A DNA stretch of 64,000 nt from NCBI GenBank assembly GCA_037447655.1, contig JBBHKE010002622.1, positions 18,866-82,865 on the forward strand, written 5' to 3'. The notes below the pieces were generated by a model that worked only from the letters and a program-made list of their open reading frames with translations, was not told the DNA's origin and ran no database searches. This document shows positions 3,179 to 62,073 of this stretch, piece after piece (position 1 is the stretch's first letter; the number at the start of each line of letters is the position of its first letter). The stretch is from Zygnema cylindricum. Lineage: Eukaryota; Streptophyta; Zygnematophyceae; Zygnematales; Zygnemataceae. A program made the position numbers and the translations under genes.

Positions 3179-4178
3179 TGTTGAAATAAGTAGTTTTTGT
3201 ATTTTCTATTTAAAATAAATTAGCGGAAACATATATAAGATATGATGGCAGCCTGCCTCCATCTCTTCTCTCTTTTCCCCATACTTGTTGTAGTCACTGA
3301 AGGAGAGAGAGAGCGATGGAGCCATGGCTGCCTCAGCGCCATAAGAAGGACTAAAGAGTGACTTAAGTCACTCTCAACAAAAGGTTGAGTCCGGCAGGAC
3401 TCAAACCCCCGACCGGTAGAGCACGGCATAGCCGTTAGCTCTATCCAGTCTGTCGTAGAAGTTCGTTAGATGATATAGGGTTTCATTCATATATAAACTA
3501 TTGTATAGTACCGAAATGATCTAACTAGAATATGAAACGAAACGAACATAGAACTTGTTAAGGTTTAGTGCGAACGTCATTTCGCACGAAACAAATGAAA
3601 CAGACACTTTGAACGGTCGACATTTAATGTCGCATTTAATCCGACGGCGCACGTCGTCGCCGAGATCGCGGAATGGTCACTTTGGATTTTATGGACGTGG
3701 CATGACGTGGCGCCGCGTGGAAGGATGACATTCGGTCGCGGGAATTCCGGAGGAAATACGGACAAGTGGAAAAATGACACGCGTCCACTCAAGAGCCTTG
3801 TCGTACACCGGCCGTACAGAAAGTACATCGGCCATAGTACCTTTCTGTACTTTACAGTAATACGATTGGTTCGTACTTTAGTAGATAGGGGTTGTGAGAG
3901 GGATTTAGGACTTAGGAAATATTTGGTAGACAGACACCTCTCTCTAAGAGAGCTTTGTATAAATTGGCATTTTTGCCGGCTCATAACTTATCGCCTGGTT
4001 GGCCGTTTTCAGTGATTCTTTTTGCTACGGACTCAAGGGAGTCCATGCTACACAGGGGTGCAGTCAAATTCTCAGTTTGCCTTCTTGGGCAGAAGTGGTC
4101 GTGGCTTAAAGTGGGTTAGTTAAATACTATCTAGAGGCTTCCTGTATTCTGTAGTCCAATGGAGGACACAGAATTGCA
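3179..4178 (+). repeat. 3' LTR of the left copia element
   Basis: The LTR starts TGTTGAAAT directly after the purine tract AAATAAGGGGAG and ends in TTGCA at 4178, about 1.0 kb. U3 holds an antisense tRNA-like block (about 3385-3455), a GTAC-rich block (about 3799-3852) and a TATA box TATAAAT at 3958-3964, so transcription should start near 3985. The following R/U5 part (TTTTTGCTACGGACTCAAGG and on) is shared with the other copia LTRs in the window. Confidence 0.88.
3385..3455 (-). other. tRNA-like block inside copia LTR (antisense)
   Basis: Read on the minus strand, the block has a B-box-like GGTTTGAGTCC (3397-3407) with a D-arm-like GGATAGAGCTAACGG upstream at tRNA-like spacing. It is antisense to the LTR. 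The fold is imperfect and no functional tRNA is claimed. Confidence 0.45.
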
Positions 4179-7176: not shown

Positions 7177-7436
7177 GGTACGTCTTTCCGTAGCATTTCG
7201 TACGACTTCCAAACGATATCTGCGGACGTCTATTCAAATCGTGTACCTACAAAAATCGCACGAAATTAGTATTTTCTCAACAAGACATGTACGTGAATAG
7301 TGCACATGTCAAAAATAAGTAAATCGCCAATATAAAGGGAAGTGCTCGCGCTGTAATCGTGCGTCAATGCAAAAATCGTGCGTGCATGCCAAATATCGTG
7401 CGTGCATACAACCGACACGATGCGGCATGATAACAT

Positions 7437-7665
7437 TGTTGGATTGGCACGTGAATGCCGGTTCAATACGGGGTAGAATGTGATACGTCACACTTTAACT
7501 CGCCTAAAAGAAATAAGTACGGACACGCCAGGCTCTAGATCGAGTTGGTGGCATAGTGGTTAGTGCGCTGACAGCTCAAGTCAGACGTCCCAGGTTCGAG
7601 CTCTAGCCGCCTCATTTTTCCCTAGTATGGGATATATCGAATCCTGGATTTCACGGAAATCAACA
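7437..7665 (+). mobile_element. solo TRIM-type LTR with 5-bp TSD
   Basis: This 229-bp sequence starts TGTTGGATTGGCACGTGAA and ends ATTTCACGGAAATCAACA, flanked by AACAT at 7432-7436 and AACAT at 7666-7670. It matches, end to end, the 228-bp LTR of the TRIM at 59639-60142. It is therefore a solo LTR of a terminal-repeat retrotransposon in miniature. It carries a tRNA-like sequence in the sense orientation. Confidence 0.9.
7542..7613 (+). other. tRNA-like cloverleaf within TRIM LTR
   Basis: The 72 nt fold as a tRNA: acceptor GAGTTGG/CCGCCTC (one mismatch, one wobble), D-arm GCAT/GTGC with loop AGTGGTTA, anticodon stem CTGAC/GTCAG (perfect), loop AGCTCAA, five-base variable region, T-arm CCAGG-TTCGAGC-TCTAG. 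A box TGGCATAGTGG and B box GGTTCGAGCTC match Pol III internal promoter elements. Position 33 is G rather than the usual T, so it is probably not a working tRNA. The anticodon stem differs from the copies near 59700 by paired, compensatory changes. Confidence 0.8.
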
Positions 7666-8108
7666 AACATCGCCGATGTGTTATAAAAAGAAGTTTGAAG
7701 ACGTCGTGGTCGTGGGTCGAAAAACACAAGATGAAAACGTGTGGTGCACTATAAGTGGAAAGAGGAGGCAAGTTGTACTCAACATTTTTGTAGTTTTTTT
7801 GTACGATTGTAATCTTTTGCTAAGTTAGTTTTAGAGGTAAAAACAGAAAAAAAAACCTTTGCTTTGTTTATGGGGCTGTACCTTTAAGATAAACATATAA
7901 TGTATGACTTGTATTTTGTCGTTTTAAATCTTTAAGTCATTTTGAACAATACGAAAAATAATAACAGAGCGTTGTAGACTCACGACATGGTAGGCAAAAA
8001 CTTCTTACCATCAAACCACTTCCAATTTTTGATCAAAAAATACGTAATATATAGAAATGCAATTTTGTTTTGTTTAAAACTACTTACAAAGAGTATACTA
8101 TAGTTTTT
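7666..8108. other. unassigned AT-rich stretch
   Basis: No gene or repeat is supported beyond the TSD of the preceding solo LTR. The open frame on the minus strand here runs into the CA microsatellite and is not credible. Confidence 0.4.
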
Positions 8109-25817: not shown

Positions 25818-27297
25818 TAGTGTTGTGTATCGGTATAGATTTGCCGATAACCGATATGGACATTTTTTCGGGTATCCGATAATCGATATATTGGTACGAT
25901 ACATCATTATCGGTGTTATCGCCGATAAATAACCGATATTTATCGATATTTATTGGCGATAACACCTAATGATAACTATCAGCAATATATGTACAGACCG
26001 TACATATAAATGTATAGCCAGTACACTCAACTGTACGTCATATTTTCTGGACGCGCCGCGGACCCCTTTCCCCCCCGATTTCGGTAAAAAATCGCGATTT
26101 TCCTTGATTATATATTATTTAAGGGGGTTTACTTGGATTCCACGCTCCCATACCCTTCCTCAATGTCCTTTTGACTATTAGTTAAGCGCATAGATGTCGA
26201 ATTCGTACGGATTTGGACTATTTTGTGAAAATTACGTAATGTTAAAGATTTTCTAGTATTTCGCTTTTCGTACATTTGCATACATGTCCGTACAGAGAAA
26301 TCTATACGAAATTTACGAAAAGTATGAAATCGACGAATATTACGTATTTTTCACACAAAAGTCCACATCCGTACGAATTCGACATCTATGAGCGTAACTA
26401 ACAGTCAAAAGGACATTGAGGAAGGGTATGGGAGCGTGGAACCCAAGTAAACCCCCTAAAATAATATATAATCAATGAAAAATCGCAATTTTTTACCGAA
26501 ATCTGGGGGAAGGGGGTCTGCGGCGCGTCCCGGGAATATGACGTACAGTTGAGTGAACTGGCCGTATATATATATGTACGGTCCGTACATATATCGCCGA
26601 TAGTTATCGATATCGGTGTTATAGCCAATAAATATCGATAAATATCGGTTATATATCGGCGATAACACCGATAACGATATATTGTACCAATATATGTCGA
26701 TTATCGGGTACCCGAAAAAAGGTCCATGTCGGTTATCGGCAAATCCTTACCAATACACAACACTAAAAATTACGAACAATTAACATAAATGTACAAAATT
26801 ATACCGAAAGTGCACCTTACAAACCTAAAAATACGGCAAATCTTTGTCAACCGTACTAAATTATATAGGAATGTACGGCAATGTATCCTCCAAACCCTGA
26901 AATTAATATCCCTAACAAGTACGGAAAATACGGCCACTGTACGTACATATATGAAAAGTGTGCGGCAGTTATACTGAAGGTACGGAATTTAAGGAAGTGT
27001 ACTCTAAAACCCTTAAAATCATTTATACAACCCATAAAAAGTACGGACTTATACGGACACTATATATAACTGTACGAAAAATGTACGGTTGCAATGGAAG
27101 GTACTTTATTATACAAAGTCAATAATATAATACAGTATGTTATAAAGTACTATTGTATGTATACTATATTTTTCAAGTTATCGCCGATATGGAATTTGTT
27201 GGTCTCAGAGCGATATATCGAAACCTGACCGTTCGATAACTGGTAACTATCGGTATCGGTGTTATCGCGATAAGTTTTTTACCGATACACAACACTA
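25818..27297 (+). mobile_element. hAT-like non-autonomous element with foldback interior
   Basis: The left end TAGTGTTGTGTATCGGTA and right end ACCGATACACAACACTA form inverted repeats, and the TAGTG start fits hAT ends. An 8-bp TSD CTAAAATG lies at 25810-25817 and 27298-27305. Inside, the left half (25818 to about 26290) is repeated as a near-perfect inverted copy (about 26292-26765), which ends in its own terminal repeat. The 26770-27110 part holds about three diverged AT-rich, GTACGG-containing units. TATCGGCGATA motifs are frequent. No transposase is encoded. Confidence 0.82.
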
Positions 27298-31072: not shown

Positions 31073-32389
31073 CTGTGAAACAACACCAAGCACCAACCAT
31101 TAAAGAAGTTCCAGATAGAAAAAATTATAGCATTCAGAATATGGCTCGTTATTTGATGAAACGAAGGCATCCTGGTATACGAACAATAAAAGCTCTAAGA
31201 AAGGAGTAGGGGAAAGAAAGTGTGTTTACCGGAGGAGTAGATGGTTCAAGAGGAGGAGGAGAGCTCTGCAAAACAAATCCGGGCACCAACAAAAGCAAGA
31301 AGTTTGAGATGGAAATAATGATAGCATTCAGTTTACGGCTAGAATGAGGTCATCCTAATTTTATACTGTCTATGAAATCTTGAGTCCGTAGAAAGAACAT
31401 ATGTCAGGTTTGCTAAGCGCCTTGTTGGACTTTAAAGAGCTAAAAAGTTTTAAAGCTCTTGAGTTTGCTGAATATCGATTTTAATCGTCTAATAGATTGT
31501 CACCAACGCCTTTGAGAGCGAATGTACAATCATACAAAAAGAGTGCTAACATGAATGGACATGGTTTTAGTCTTAAATAAGGGGAAAATGAAAGAGCGAA
31601 TAGGATAGCGGATAAAATCGAGGAGAAAAAAAATGGAAGCGTAAGATATCATAAAAAAATGGAGGAGAGAGAGAAGGAATGAGTGGTCACCAGAGGAGGA
31701 GAAGGTGGCGAAGGCAGAGGAGGTTCGGCGAGGCCAGGGTCGGAAGTTTCCCGGAAGTCACGGAGAACTCTGTCGTGTCTCGCGTCGTGATCTGCATGCG
31801 CCATGATAGCCGTTCCCGCGGCGCCGCCAGATCCGGTGGACGACGTGGGTCCCTTTCCGTACACATGGATGTACTGCGCTTTGGCGCCGAGCGTAATTTC
31901 AAACTGAATGTAAATCCTCTCCGCCGGCACGCCGTCGATCAGTACGGATTGCACGAAGCAATTTTTGCTGGTCACGTTGAGAAATTCCTTGGTGTCGTCT
32001 AGGTACACACCGCCGTAGACGGTGTCGTTGAGCCACAGCTGCACCACTTTCGGTCCGGCGACCGTATTGTAGCACGCCAAAACGGAACTGTTCTGCATCA
32101 GTTTCTGGTCCATGATGTTGAGGCCCCACGCGACCCAGCCGCCGGGCCGCCGCGGTTCGGAAACGTACAGGCCCTTCAAGTACTTCGCGTACGGATTTAG
32201 TGTGTTGTTGTAGCTGAGGGACCACGCAACTGTGGAGTTGTCTCTGAGAGTGTTACACGTGGAGTACTTTGTGGGAACGAATTGGTAGGAGCTGTAGCAA
32301 GTTAGGTTGCTCTGAGCATTTGTACGGATGGGTGCGACGATGAGAAGAGAGGCTGCTAGGAAAAGGAGAATTCGGAGAGAGTGAGCCAT
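30773..32389 (-). CDS. secreted DOMON-domain protein with proline-rich tail (3 exons)
   Basis: Proposed exons on the minus strand: 32389-31691, 31265-31230 and 31072-30773 (699 + 36 + 300 nt, 344 residues). Introns are bounded by GTGACC...TTGCAG and GTAAAC...TCACAG, and all junctions are phase 0. The start has a signal peptide (residues 1-25, ending TNA). The DOMON-like fold covers about 30-180, with GGWVAWGLN at 83-91 and conserved Cys 31, 45, 106 and 144. By comparison with AIR12-type DOMON proteins, Met98 and His175 are candidate heme b ligands. The tail (PPLPSPPSPP, then SPPPPKKSPP repeats) is extensin-like and Lys-rich, which suits a cell-wall or plasma-membrane-outer-face location. There is no cytochrome b561 domain. 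A role in apoplastic redox or ascorbate-linked electron transfer is inferred. This is the only host gene I trust in the window. The end of exon 3 could instead splice further. Confidence 0.78.
31230..31265 (-). CDS. exon 2: 36-nt proline-rich mini-exon
   Basis: Twelve codons (SSPPPLEPSTPP) are bounded by TTTTGCAG and GTAAAC. It starts with the same AGCTCTCCTCCTC as exon 3 and is preceded by intron sequence similar to that before exon 3, which suggests exon duplication. Confidence 0.6.
31691..32389 (-). CDS. exon 1: signal peptide and DOMON domain
   Basis: The ATG at 32389 is chosen because it begins a clean signal peptide (hydrophobic RILLFLAASLLIVAPI) and lies about 105 bp downstream of a TATA box. 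There are no in-frame stops through to the splice donor CTG|GTGACC. Reading on past the donor would add VTTHSFSLSSIFL and stop, an alternative if the intron is retained. Confidence 0.8.
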
Positions 32390-32467
32390 GGTGCTCTGGA
32401 GAAGAGGGGAGAGAGAGAGGGAGAAACGGCACGAGAAGAAGAGAGGAATTCGAGCCTACGGTGAGAT

Positions 32468-35355: not shown

Positions 35356-35855
35356 TGTAAAGATTCGTAAAATCGACAAATAGATGGACAATCGTGTTCA
35401 AAAGAATGATAAGCCAACAAGATTTGAACTTGGGACATTTTTTGTAGTTGTGAATATAACGATTGCACCATCTTTCGGATATTGTTGTTGGTAAGTCCAT
35501 TTTTGTAACATAGTTTAGAGTGGGTGCACCCCACATCGAGGTATCAATATGTATTCTTTGCGTACGTCAACACCACCTCTCGAGAGGTAGCCGTTCATAT
35601 ATCCAACTTCGTCTCTTAAGCTCCGATAACATATTAAGATTTGTAAAATTGAAGGATAAAGTGGAAAATTTCGTTAAAGGGAATGATGAGCCAGTCAAGG
35701 TTTATACCTGGGACATTTCACTAAAGTTGTGAATACGTTAACCACTACGCCACCACCGAGGATGCCAATGTTGGCGAGTCTATTTTTATTAGCTGTTTAA
35801 AAGTAAGTGCACCCCACATCTTCGTATCGATCATCATTATTTGCGTACGTCAACA
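35356..35855 (-). mobile_element. TRIM element, diverged family
   Basis: Two LTRs of about 217-224 bp (35356-35572 and 35632-35855) start TGTTGACGTACGCAAA on the minus strand. They flank only about 59 bp, which contains a degenerate primer-binding site TTATCGGAGC (35620-35630) next to the right LTR and a purine stretch beside the left LTR. Both LTRs carry a tRNA-like block in sense orientation at the same place as in the TRIM at 59639. No TSD is evident. No protein is encoded. Confidence 0.75.
35688..35759 (-). other. tRNA-like sequence in TRIM LTR
   Basis: D stem GCGT/ACGT, anticodon stem TTCAC/GTGAA (perfect), loop AACTTTA, and T arm CCAGG-TATAAAC-CTTGA. The acceptor stem is decayed. The partner LTR has a more degraded copy (about 35407-35475) with B box GTTCAAATC. 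Confidence 0.65.
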
Positions 35856-43512: not shown

Positions 43513-44203
43513 ATCTGAGAGTGGCTCGGAGAGATCGAGTCAGAGTGGTTAGACCCGTGGGAGGGGTGGTAAATATTTTGAGCAGCTCTTCGGAGAGAAG
43601 CTCTTTACAGTCGGCGCAAGACCGGTCACAGAGAGCTCAATATTCTCGCCCTCCCCCATCTTCCTCTCAGGACACCGCAGTCGGCAAACCCTCCCGCGGG
43701 CGTACCTCTTCGCGGCCTCTTACAGGAGAAGGGGGTATCGAGAGGGAAGCACGAGATCCATTGAGGGGTAAAACGTTTGACCATCGTGACAGCAAGGGGA
43801 GATTTGCACCTCTTCCCAAAGAGGAGACGTCCCTAACCCTTGTGTCAGCCTTAACCGAGAAACCAGCTCCTACACCACCTCGCGGCCGCCCTGTAGGAGG
43901 GCTCTGGCGATTTGAACCAATTGATCCAGAGGTTCCAGGTACGAGACCCGAATATTTGTCCGAGGGATGGTGGCGGACCAGACCCAATGATCCTGAAATT
44001 CCGAGATGGGGATAGCGGATCTCACCAAAGTTGTCGAAAAGGCCAAGGAACTAGTGGAGGTTCTAAAATCCTAGAGACAGGCTACGGCAGGGGCCGGACA
44101 TGCCACCGTAGATTAGGAGGCCTTGGAGGTAAAAAGGAGAAAGGTATGGGAACAGGAATTGATGCTTATTCGGGACGCTTGGCGTAAGACAAGTGGGATT
44201 CTC
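43513..44203 (+). other. GC-rich segment of unknown origin, 164-codon frame
   Basis: This 0.7-kb stretch is clearly richer in G+C than both neighbours. The plus-strand frame 43521-44015 codes for a Pro/Arg/Ser-rich product with two related C-terminal motifs (GGLWRFEPIDPEVPGTRPEY and WWRTRPNDPEIPRWG). Just after it, another frame gives a short charged helix-like segment (LTKVVEKAKELVEVL). I do not recognise it. It may be a gag-like part of a different retroelement captured between the copia RT and the heptamer array. Confidence 0.4.
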
Positions 44204-45316
44204 AGCGAGGATCGACGATCTAGGATCGTGGATCGAGGATCAAGGATCGAGGATCGAGGATCAAGGATCGTGGATCGTGGATCGAGGATCGAGGATCAAG
44301 GATCGTGGATCAAGGATCATGGATCGAGGATCGTGGATCGAGAATCATGGATCGAGGATCGTGGATCGTGGATCGTGGATCCTGGATCGTGAATCCAGGA
44401 TCGAGGATCGAGGATCAAGAATCGAGGATCGAAGATCAAGATCAAGGATCGAGGATCGAGGATCGAGGATTGTGGATCGAGGATCGTGGATTGAGGATCA
44501 TGGATCGAGGATCGAGGATATAGGATTGAGGATCATGGATCGAGGATCGAGGATCGTGGATCGAGGATCGATCGTGGATCGAGGAACGGGGATCGTGGAT
44601 CGAGGATCGAGGATCGTGGATCGTGGATCGAAGATCGAGGATCGAGGATGGAGGATCAAGGATCATGGATCGAGGATCAAGGATCGTGGATCTTAGATAG
44701 AGGATCGAGGATCAAGGATCGAGGATCGAGGATCGAGGATCGAGGATCGTGGATCGAGGATCAAGGATCGAGAATGGATCGAAGATGGATCGAGGATCTG
44801 GAATCGAGGGTCGAGGATCGTGGATCAAGGATCATGGATCAAGGATCGAGGATCGTGGATCGAGGATCGAGGATTGAGGATCGTGGATCGAGGATTGAGG
44901 ATCGAGGATCATGGATCGTGGATCGAGGATCGAGAATCGAGGATCGAGGGTCGAGGATCGAGGAACGAGGATGGAGAATGGATCGATGATGGATCGAGGA
45001 TCGAGGGTCGAGCATCATGGATCGTGGATCAAGGATCATGGATCGAGGATCAAGGATCGTGGATCGTGGATCGAGGATCGAGGATCGATGATCGTGGATC
45101 ATGGACCGAGGATCAAGGATCGAGGATCGAGGATCGAAGATCGTGGATCGAGGATCGAGGATCGAGGATCGAGGATTGAGGATGGTGGATCGAGGATCGA
45201 GGATTGAGGATTGAGGATCAAGGATCATGGATCGTGGATCGAGGATCGAGGATCGAGGATCGAGGATCGAGTATGGATTGAGGATCGTGGATCGTAGATC
45301 AAAGATCGTGGATCGA
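44204..45316. repeat. 1.1-kb heptanucleotide array (GGATCGA)n
   Basis: About 155 near-perfect 7-bp units of GGATCGA, with variants GGATCGT, GGATCAA and GGATCAT, fill the interval. Every unit carries GATC. Because 7 is not a multiple of 3, a 21-bp period codes for a 7-residue repeat in every frame (DRGSRIE-type on plus, DPRSSIL-type on minus), producing several long but meaningless open frames. The right edge meets an LTR at GGACGGTAGG. Confidence 0.95.
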
Positions 45317-45556
45317 GGACGGTAGGTGCCCGATTTAAATCTTGGGCCCATCAAATATATTTTGGTAAAATCTACTAACCTAATGTCTATCCCCGTCGGG
45401 ATAGCATATGCGGCCATGGCTCTATCCCCCTCTCCAACTTTCAGTGACTACGACAAGTGTGGGAGCTGGAGAGAGGAGTTAGAGGCAGACAGCCTGTGCT
45501 TCTTTTCTTCATTTTACAAAACCTAGAAAACACTAAAATAACCTTTAATTTCTACA
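45317..45556 (-). repeat. copia LTR truncated by the heptamer array
   Basis: The first 240 bp of a minus-strand LTR (TGTAGAAATTAAAGG end at 45556) are present, then the LTR stops abruptly at the array. It is the same sequence as 41988-42227. Confidence 0.9.
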
Positions 45557-59638: not shown

Positions 59639-59691
59639 TGTTAGATTTCCTAGAAATCCGGGATTCGGCATGTCCCACAGTTGGGAAAATT

Positions 59692-59762
59692 GAGCCGGCC
59701 AGGGTTCGAACCTGGGACCTTTCACTTCAGCTGCGAACACACTACCACTGTGCCACCAGCTC
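59692..59762 (-). other. tRNA-like cloverleaf in TRIM 3' LTR
   Basis: The 71 nt fold completely: acceptor GAGCTGG/CCGGCTC (7 bp), D stem GCAC/GTGT, anticodon stem TTCGC/GTGAA, loop AGCTGAA, variable AGGTC, T arm CCAGG-TTCGAAC-CCTGG (5 bp). A box TGGCACAGTGG and B box GGTTCGAACCC are canonical in form. Position 33 is G, unlike working tRNAs. No CCA is encoded. Confidence 0.85.
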
Positions 59763-59976
59763 GATGTAGAGACTGGCGGGTCCGTACCCTTTTCTTACGT
59801 GCGGCTCGAGTATGGATATTCCATATTCTACCCCGTATTGGACCGGCTTCACGTGCCAATCCAACACCCCCCCTCACGGGGAAGCTGGTCAAACCATCCG
59901 CAATCCCGCTGGCTCCGATACCATGTTAGATTTCCTAGAAATCCGGGATTCGGCATGTCCCACACTTGGGAAAATT

Positions 59977-60047
59977 GAGCCGGCCAGGGTTTGAACCTGG
60001 GACCTTTCACTTCAGCTGCGAACGCACTACCACTGTGCCACCAGCTC
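59977..60047 (-). other. tRNA-like cloverleaf in TRIM 5' LTR
   Basis: It is the same fold as in the partner LTR, with D stem GCAC/GTGC (now fully Watson-Crick) and T loop TTCAAAC. The two LTR copies differ slightly, but every stem remains paired. Confidence 0.85.
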
Positions 60048-60142
60048 GATGTAGAGACTGGCGGGTCCGTACCCTTTATTACGGGCGGCTCGAGTATGAT
60101 ATTCCATATTCTACCCCGTATTGGACCGGCTTCACGTGCCAA

Positions 60143-62073
60143 CCTTTCCTAAAACAACCACCTATAAGAGAGAAAAAATTCTAGATCTAGTACACACAGA
60201 TATTTGGGGACCGGCTAAAGTGCCCTCACCGAGGGGGAAGAGATTTATGATGACTATCACTGATGATTGGTCTCCGTATTCTCGGGTGTATTTTTTGAAA
60301 AACAAGTCCGAAGCTCAGGATTGTTTTAGACAATATAAAGCATGGAGCGAAAAACTCCATGAAACTCCAATCAAGAGAGTAAGTAGTGACAATGGTGGAG
60401 AGTATACTTTTAACCAGTTTGAGGATTTTTTGAGGGAGGATGGGGTCCAACACCAAAAGATAGTTCGAAAAAACCGGGAACAGAATGGGGTAGCTGAAAG
60501 GTTAAATAGAACACTAAGTGATAGTGCTAGAAGTCTGTTGTCAGATAAAATGATAGGAAAAAGGTTTTAGGCAGAAGCAATGAACTGTGCTAATTACCTC
60601 AAAAATAGAGTTCTTACTTCAGCTATAAAAGATCAAACACCTTATGAGAGATGGACAAGCCGGAAACCAGACATATCTCACAAAAAGGTTTCCGGCAGTC
60701 AAGTATTCAGTCTAGAAACAGATCGGTCTAATTGGAAGCTAGATCCTAGAGGAAAAACCGGGATACTTATTAGGATATCATGAGGATGTTAAAGGATATA
60801 GAGTTTATGATCTAAAAAGGGAAGATATAATTTTAGTAAAGCATCAAGTAGTTATCGATGAACGAAAGTCTGTCGATCCCTTCAAATATACAAAGTCAGT
60901 AAAAATCAGATTTGAGTGACAATATTCCGATGACTTTGAGCTCCCTAACTATCCGGGTTTTAGAGAAGATGACATTCTTGCAAGTACAAATCAGACCGAA
61001 AAGGACTCGGCTGTGGAAACTCAAGTGACAACTCTACCCGAAGCGAAAAACGTGGTGGAAATTGATTCGGAATCAAAAGACAGGGGAGAAGCCGAGATTG
61101 TCGAAAGAATCCACGAGAACCATCTATTCCGGGCTCGGATTTTGAAGGGGGGAGGAGAAGTAGCAAAAGATTGCAAGAAAAACAGGTTAATAACAAGGTA
61201 ACAAAACTATCTCATTAAGATGAACCTCAGACTTATGGAGAGGAAATGACTTGTCCAGAAAGAAACTCGTGGAAGACAGCCATCAATGAGGAGATGGCCT
61301 CAATTATGGCAGCCGATACTTGGGAGCTAGTGGATTGTCCACCTAACCGAAAACGAATCGGTTGTAAGCGGGTTTTTTTTAAATTACATAGAGAATTGGA
61401 AGAGGAGATCTTCATGGGACAACCCGAAGGGTTTGTGGAAGAAGGAGAGGAGAGTAAGGTATGTCGGCTGATTAAATCTCTTTATGGTTTGAAACAAGTG
61501 CCTCGACAGTGGAATAAGAAGCTTGATGAGTTTCTTACCGGTCTGGGATATATCCGGATCAGCTCAGATCACTCAATCTATGTTTTCGAAGATGAGGAAG
61601 GTATTATATTTATTGCAATTTATGTTGATGATTTGCTTGTTTTAAGTAAATCAATGGAAAAAATTAATAAACTGAAACCGATCTTAAGGGGAGATTTGAA
61701 ATGAATGATAGGGGGGAAGGAAAATATATTTTGGGAATTCAAGTAGAAAGAGACCGAAAAAGAAAGATTATAAGATTGACTCAAAAGAAAGCAATAGGGT
61801 TCATGGTTGAAAAATTTCAGATGGATAAAGCTAATACTTGTACAACTCCAATGGAGTTGAAAAAGAGAAGTGAGGGGAGTAAGGAAGAAGGAGTCATATT
61901 CTTAGACGAGGAACTATCTCCTGAAGAACAGAAGATCATGCACACTATTCCTTACAGGAAAGTAGTGGGAAGTCTAATGTATTTTATGAATTGTACCCGG
62001 CCGGATTTAGCTGCAGTTGTAGGAGTGCTGAGTAGAAGTCTAAATGCTCCCACTAAGAGGGATTGGGAGGCAG
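60143..62073 (+). pseudogene. copia element E, 3' half: integrase, RT, start of RNase H
   Basis: It continues the integrase from where element E broke at 52253: FPKTTTYKREKILDLVHTDI, then the core SSDNGGEYT and QNGVAERLNRT. A stop lies at 60568-60570; the C-terminal part follows (NCANYLKNRVLTSA) with frameshifts near 60780. The RT N-terminal part (61246) is joined at about 61375-61385 directly to RELEEEIFMGQPEGF, losing about 70 codons with the first RT motifs. IYVDDLLVLSKS is intact near 61620. The last frame ends at NAPTKRDWEAV, where an LTR fragment begins at 62067-62073. RNase H is missing. Confidence 0.9.

Follow-up and report, generated by a model that had tools for sequence, protein, structure and literature searches.

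The genome of Zygnema cylindricum contains TRIM elements in which different families are united at the boundary between LTR and PBS, and this is what is new here. The families concerned (A/S, B and D) are all present in the 352.8 Mb genome, and B is also found in the window, by which we mean the whole stretch of 64,000 nucleotides that was analyzed (Table 1). Each carries a tRNA-like block in its LTRs. We consider it likely that these are Helenus-type TRIMs with the block as an internal Pol III promoter, that they are mobilized by copia, and that A/S, B and D are packaged together and mix at the PBS.

Genome searches gave at least 81 matches to the A LTR (from 40 scored of 983 candidates), at least 60 to the S LTR (40 scored of 716) and at least 46 to the B LTR plus internal part (40 scored of 146). 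Sequences were fetched for 40 A places, the window included, and for half of the S matches (30 of 60). Outside the window the search gave 44 B matches, and 36 of these were fetched as well. Family A has LTRs of 228–229 nt in most copies and a 57-nt internal part. Two full LTRs and nothing else, with no coding capacity, were found in 19 of the 40 A-family elements examined. Perfect 5-bp TSDs flank 25 of those 40; by class, they occur in 15/19 elements with two full LTRs, 5/7 arrays and 4/9 solo LTRs. LTR pairs of equal length were identical in 6 of 15 cases. Two copies are unusual in form: L146 is an LTR copy that lacks U3 and begins precisely where the tRNA block begins, as from an RNA start, and L068:1178-1443 is an LTR in which a stretch within the block is duplicated.

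Family D was uncovered with a pattern derived from a chimeric LTR, which led to 32 places. Its LTR is 246 nt long, its PBS is TGGTATCAGAGC and the spacing is 307–308; its block was called as tRNA-Ala(ggc) in 4/5 D loci scanned. Perfect TSDs were present at 4 of 16 distinct D places (L079, L082, L083/L084 and L086/L087) and, among 11 further D loci, at L155, L157 and L158. The D LTR has no similarity to the A LTR beyond the block (best E of about 1.5), and none was listed outside the block when it was compared with an S copy and a single B copy. The block is placed at nt 105–106 of 228–229 and, in D, at nt 113 of 246. Different LTRs thus carry a block at nearly the same place.

Mixed elements were found at L070, L090, L097, L165 and L166, where the LTR of one family is followed at the PBS by the internal part and LTR of another. 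L165 consists of a D LTR, a B internal part and a B LTR within a perfect TSD (AATTG/AATTG), and L097 has the same order with flanks AGATT/AGATG. L070 starts with a truncated S LTR, to which LTRs of B, S and D are added in that order, again within a perfect TSD (ATATT/ATATT); its first S LTR is cut within its block and fused to a B internal part, a breakpoint that is not at the PBS. Among loci L009–L097, with duplicates removed, 4/62 LTR-to-internal junctions were mixed vs 0/66 internal-to-LTR junctions, a borderline difference (one-sided Fisher P = 0.052). A stricter gap rule drops one of the four, the B LTR to S internal junction of L070. Genome-wide, a pattern joining D LTR to B internal part was matched with one mismatch at 7 places, a raw count without a denominator. 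Four of these are D LTRs (C535, C1766, C2522 and C1404, in L090, L165, L166 and L097), and the other three read as B LTR ends, judged from the pattern matches alone. The opposite pattern, in which the PPT of a B internal part leads into an LTR of A, S or D, had 0 exact matches genome-wide (again a raw count with no denominator) and three one-mismatch matches, all of which read as B LTR variants at known B places. Exchange also reaches into the block. At L040, which has a TSD on both sides, the two LTRs are identical except that the block of the 5' LTR (401-631) opens with a D-like segment.

Perfect TSDs enclose L165 and L070 although the two ends of each come from different families, so these elements were probably joined before integration. 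The PBS is common to A/S, B and D, which are apparently co-packaged. In that case, the plus-strand strong-stop DNA made from one family could pair with the minus strand of another at its PBS end. This step would produce the elements with two different LTRs that we observed, and its repetition the mixed tandem arrays; it could be repeated because every plus strand again terminates in LTR-PBS. Our tentative proposal is that tRNA-bearing TRIM families with LTRs dissimilar beyond the block share particles, that PBS strand transfer chains them before integration, and that the cloverleaf is a terminal repeat traded between families. We rate its chances as somewhat short of even. If true, chained PBS strand transfer would also account for same-family arrays. 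The mixed elements might instead stem from ectopic DNA recombination after integration, among neighboring or dispersed copies, and not from reverse transcription. LTR recombination does happen, since L018 and L042, and likewise L017 and the window, have a common flank on one side and different ones on the other, parting at the LTR end. The PBS also offers a shared stretch of about 12–15 nt, and a stretch of 21 nt immediately before the block is common to A and B, at 95% identity (E = 2e-4). We nonetheless regard ectopic recombination as improbable: under assumed base frequencies a chance 5-nt match, as the perfect TSDs around the different end families of L165 and L070 would require, has a probability of about 0.001, and on the PPT side no exact junction leads from a B internal part into an LTR of A, S or D, against four from D LTR to B internal part.

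The block belongs to the LTRs. The exact 18-mer with which the A/S/B block begins was found at 499 places in the genome, and its reversed control at one. Twenty of the 499 sites were sampled by eye from the first 100 listed, favoring single sites. LTR sequence was present on both sides at 17 and on one side at 3, and no site had it on neither side; the 17 include L140, where the upstream LTR piece is 78 nt distant. All 32 D-block sites are within LTRs as well. These comprise 19 + 11 loci, C2640:26758 (the middle LTR of L083/L084) and L040, whose site is an A-type LTR carrying a D-like half block. A preliminary description of this DNA had named a block lying mainly outside LTRs as the sign of an independent SINE inserted by chance. 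With 20/20 A/S/B-type and 32/32 D-block sites in LTRs, a stray SINE is rejected, and we give the idea almost no credence, even if SINE insertion as a remote origin is what Kojima proposed (PMC10886601).

Table 1. Features of the TRIM copies and their tRNA-like blocks in the window.
Feature	Position	Strand	Basis or remark
TRIM, family A	59639..60142	-	within broken Ty1/copia element; copia gag and integrase domains flank either side
3' LTR, 228 nt, TGTTGG...AACA	59639..59866	-	LTR alignment
5' LTR, first 7 nt absent	59924..60142	-	aligns only to LTR positions 8-228
PBS TGGTATCGGAGCCAG, initiator-Met type, immediately 3' of 5' LTR	59909..59923	-	sequence
Polypurine tract GTGAGGGGGGG, abutting start of 3' LTR	59867..59877	-	direct reading
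T4 run immediately past 3'-LTR block; possible Pol III terminator	59686..59689	-	sequence
tRNA-like block of 5' LTR, 72 nt	59976..60047	-	ARAGORN tRNA-Gln(ctg); Rfam tRNA 53.6 bits
tRNA-like block of 3' LTR, 72 nt	59691..59762	-	ARAGORN tRNA-Gln(ctg); Rfam tRNA 51.2 bits
Solo LTR, subfamily S	7437..7665	+	TSD AACAT at 7432-7436 and 7666-7670
tRNA-like block of solo LTR	7542..7614	+	ARAGORN tRNA-Glu(ctc)
Old second TRIM, family B	35360..35855	-	5' LTR ~35632-35855, internal part, 3' LTR ~35360-35572
tRNA-like block, family B 5' LTR	35687..35757	-	covariance model 57.1 bits
Decayed tRNA-like block, family B 3' LTR	35410..35474	-	covariance model 21.6 bits, E 0.0006
PBS TGTTATCGGAGC of family B element	35620..35631	-	sequence

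Read directly from the sequence, the family A TRIM of the window runs on the minus strand from 60142 to 59639 as LTR, 57-nt internal part and LTR, about 0.5 kb in all. The preliminary description had given both LTRs as 228 bp. This is right for the 3' LTR and inexact for the 5' LTR, because the latter aligns only to positions 8–228 and its outermost 7 nt are absent. A TSD was looked for at the ends of this TRIM and none was found. Over window positions 59639-60542, L017 matches 905 bp of copia flank plus TRIM at 99%, and the two diverge from the LTR end onward; one of the two copies must therefore be rearranged. No autonomous helper copia was found, and the two in-window copia ends that were read showed no matching LTR. 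We take the PBS of the window TRIM to be a match to initiator tRNA-Met; it does not fit the block, and the earlier suggestion of primer capture by the block is unsupported. The family B element is older, with LTRs that are 70% identical to each other.

The tRNA-like block had been described as 71 nt long in both LTRs. It is indeed present in both, but ARAGORN gives 72 nt. Both blocks exceed the Rfam tRNA gathering score of 29; with default Rfam filters only the 53.6-bit block is listed, and the solo LTR block is unlisted with or without those filters. A covariance model of the block gave 91.5, 87.5, 79.6 and 57.1 bits at its four best places in the window, the first three of which are included in the model alignment. 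In cmscan, no 5S rRNA was listed in the window up to E = 10, where tRNA was. A further stretch, near 3380-3450, looked tRNA-like by eye; it had no covariance-model match up to E = 10.

Both TRIM blocks fold into the cloverleaf at minimum energy, in agreement with the cloverleaf, including its A and B boxes, that had been reported for each LTR. Their folding is no more stable than that of shuffled sequences (z = -0.76 and -0.86). The cloverleaf is the minimum-energy form in 5/7 blocks folded, the exceptions being the solo LTR of the window and the chimera; z ranged from -0.06 to -2.24 over the seven, values that are mostly uninformative as evidence. The G at position 33 had been held to count against decoding, and it does recur, in 102/111 A/S/B blocks. 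Family D blocks have C at this position in 18/20 and T in 2/20. A functional tRNA gene was rejected on position 33, since U is missing in nearly all A/S/B/D copies.

The solo LTR at 7437-7665 was correctly said to have the same block, and it is a genuine insertion, with the 5-bp TSD AACAT on both sides and a tRNA-Glu(ctc) call by ARAGORN. Its block has two mispairs on inspection and no cloverleaf at minimum energy. The anticodon stems CTGAC/GTCAG and TTCGC/GTGAA differ as claimed, at three of five pairs. Measured against family B, which has TTCAC/GTGAA in most copies, only two pairs differ on both sides, and the third difference is a one-sided G.U in A.

Elsewhere in the window, 26133-26446 is a long inverted repeat, perhaps a MITE-like hairpin, resembling Rfam MIR7533 at 114 bits (gathering score 230). 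A tandem repeat region at 44163-45447, which on paper encodes many near-identical short GSRIEDR-type repeats, adjoins copia remnants. A 268-aa ORF with a signal-like start lies on the minus strand at 31649-32455. To us it recalls plant DOMON/AIR12 proteins, and it had no match in a protein database search or in Pfam.

Under a strict pattern, both the A and B boxes are intact in 37/45 A, 22/29 S, 10/37 B and 14/20 D distinct blocks. A T4 run occurs within 15 nt past the block in 43/45 A and 29/29 S copies and soon after it in only 2/37 B copies; in the 110 nt preceding the block it occurs in 0/45 A and 0/29 S. The A box, B box and T4 are consistent with Pol III transcription of the element, and the block is most likely an internal Pol III promoter. 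The RNA would start at or just before the 5'-LTR block, would sometimes pass the first T4 run without stopping, and would end after the 3'-LTR block. In an RNA of this extent the block would serve as the terminal repeat (R). The proteins would come from a Ty1/copia element, initiator tRNA-Met would prime reverse transcription at the observed PBS, and integration would produce the observed 5-bp TSDs. Several points run counter to this model: T4 directly after the 5' block should terminate many Pol III transcripts early, B copies lack a nearby T4 and most have imperfect boxes, and a TATA-like stretch in B and S copies would suit Pol II as well.

Two of these points, the imperfect B boxes and the TATA-like stretch, also bear on an alternative in which the block is no more than a relic, left by a tRNA or SINE that inserted into an LTR in the past and under no selection, while Pol II transcribes the TRIM. 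With a loose pattern, the TATA-like stretch is found 21–45 nt upstream of the block in 33/37 B and 28/29 S copies (1/45 in A). The low count of intact boxes in B and the mostly unremarkable folding energies favor a relic too, and A copies are too similar to reveal selection. We find a relic quite unlikely all the same, given that A and S are more conserved within the block (90% identity) than upstream (80%) or downstream (86%) of it, that LTR families with no detectable similarity carry it at the same position, and that both boxes are kept in most A, S and D blocks. Selection might, on the other hand, reach past the promoter boxes and act on the folded cloverleaf itself in the element RNA, where it could protect the ends, direct their tRNA-type processing, or serve in packaging or strand transfer. 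This could be examined in 111 A/S/B blocks (46, 28 and 37, excluding the L040 5' block, the first L068 block and, from the B element in the window, the decayed block of the 3' LTR), using a tree built from LTR flanks alone and 1000 simulations for the null. The A/S grouping by motif shifts by one sequence between analyses (46/28 vs 45/29). The anticodon stem, which is free of promoter boxes, shows pairing in 99% of cells in A, 96% in S and 97% in B. Compensatory co-changes within A/S/B numbered 8, where the null averaged 3.0 (P = 0.01), and 0–3 in slid-partner controls; near-identical A copies were uninformative. By arm, the D arm had 4 (P = 0.013), the anticodon arm 1 (P = 0.25), the T arm 2 (P = 0.22) and the acceptor 1 (P = 0.59). 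Covariation within A/S/B is modest overall, and the anticodon arm, with its single event, does not stand out by itself. Because events are few and blocks exchange pieces (L040), the three-of-five anticodon-stem difference alone is not evidence of structural selection.

A second set of 20 hand-chosen blocks, D included, pairs in 95.7% of cells, and 13/21 pairs change on both sides; cells with two-sided changes number 39, vs 7.5 for shuffles, and slid controls never exceeded 7. Part of these changes may reflect separate tRNA ancestors: the 20 were chosen for diversity, D is probably descended from another tRNA, and the changes may predate capture. A and D blocks, moreover, are not unusually stable. 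Selection on the cloverleaf as such therefore seems to us rather unlikely, with a better chance than a passive relic, and an internal Pol III promoter remains our preferred reading of the block.

The preliminary description had pointed to Cassandra, with 5S rRNA sequence in its LTRs, and had proposed a tRNA counterpart, a view that is supported. This kind of element is already known, because the structural features of Helenus that were tested are found here. Helenus was the name given by Kojima in 2024, under the umbrella TRIMp3, to TRIMs with tRNA-like sequence in their LTRs, and one plant host, Selaginella, is reported in that paper (PMC10886601). As described there, Helenus elements are about 0.3–1.3 kb long, and have A and B boxes, PBS and PPT; in plants and fungi their insertion yields a 5-bp TSD. 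They also occur as solo LTRs, and tandem arrays are noted for zebrafish LTR-11_DR (PMC10886601). The window-type TRIM is likewise under 1000 bp and non-coding, with two LTRs that both hold a tRNA-derived block, and PBS and PPT bound its internal part. A/B boxes are kept in most A, S and D blocks (10/37 in B), the 5-bp TSD is found in 25/40 A elements, at the window solo LTR and at 4/16 D places (none at the window TRIM), and solo LTRs and tandem arrays occur here too. Mobilization by copia, as for fungal-type Helenus with its 5-bp TSD (PMC10886601), would be compatible with the 5-bp TSD and initiator-Met-type PBS seen here. Selaginella Helenus differs in size, with an LTR of 120 bp and an internal part of 85 bp vs 228–246 and 57–66 nt across the families here. 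The predicted structures of Helenus do not support tRNA function except in some bivalve and fungal families, whereas here the cloverleaf is kept without U33. Mixed-family elements, found here, are not described for Helenus in the portion available (PMC10886601).

Cassandra resembles these TRIMs in having a Pol III gene in its LTR, in TGGTATCAGAGC, which was part of the search pattern, and in arrays of about three LTRs; it carries 5S rRNA in place of the tRNA-like block, and the available text describes no mixed-family arrays (PMC7215508). Ajax, a 5S rRNA TRIM of nemerteans, is alike in its piece of Pol III promoter and 5-bp TSD, and differs in its partial 5S sequence and animal host (PMC10886601). 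SMART and ordinary plant TRIMs are tiny, non-coding and copia-type, but unlike the TRIM here have no small-RNA gene in the LTR (as cited in PMC10886601). Literature searched by titles and abstracts yielded no second report of tRNA-bearing TRIMs, no PBS-joined mixed arrays and none of these families. The present families add a large, partly young set of tRNA-bearing TRIMs to Helenus, and are a further example of how such blocks can raise the number of tRNA genes called by automatic annotation. Their mixed elements allow a route of array formation to be read, by shared PBS, co-packaging and chained strand transfer, and the origin of TRIM and Cassandra arrays thereby becomes testable.
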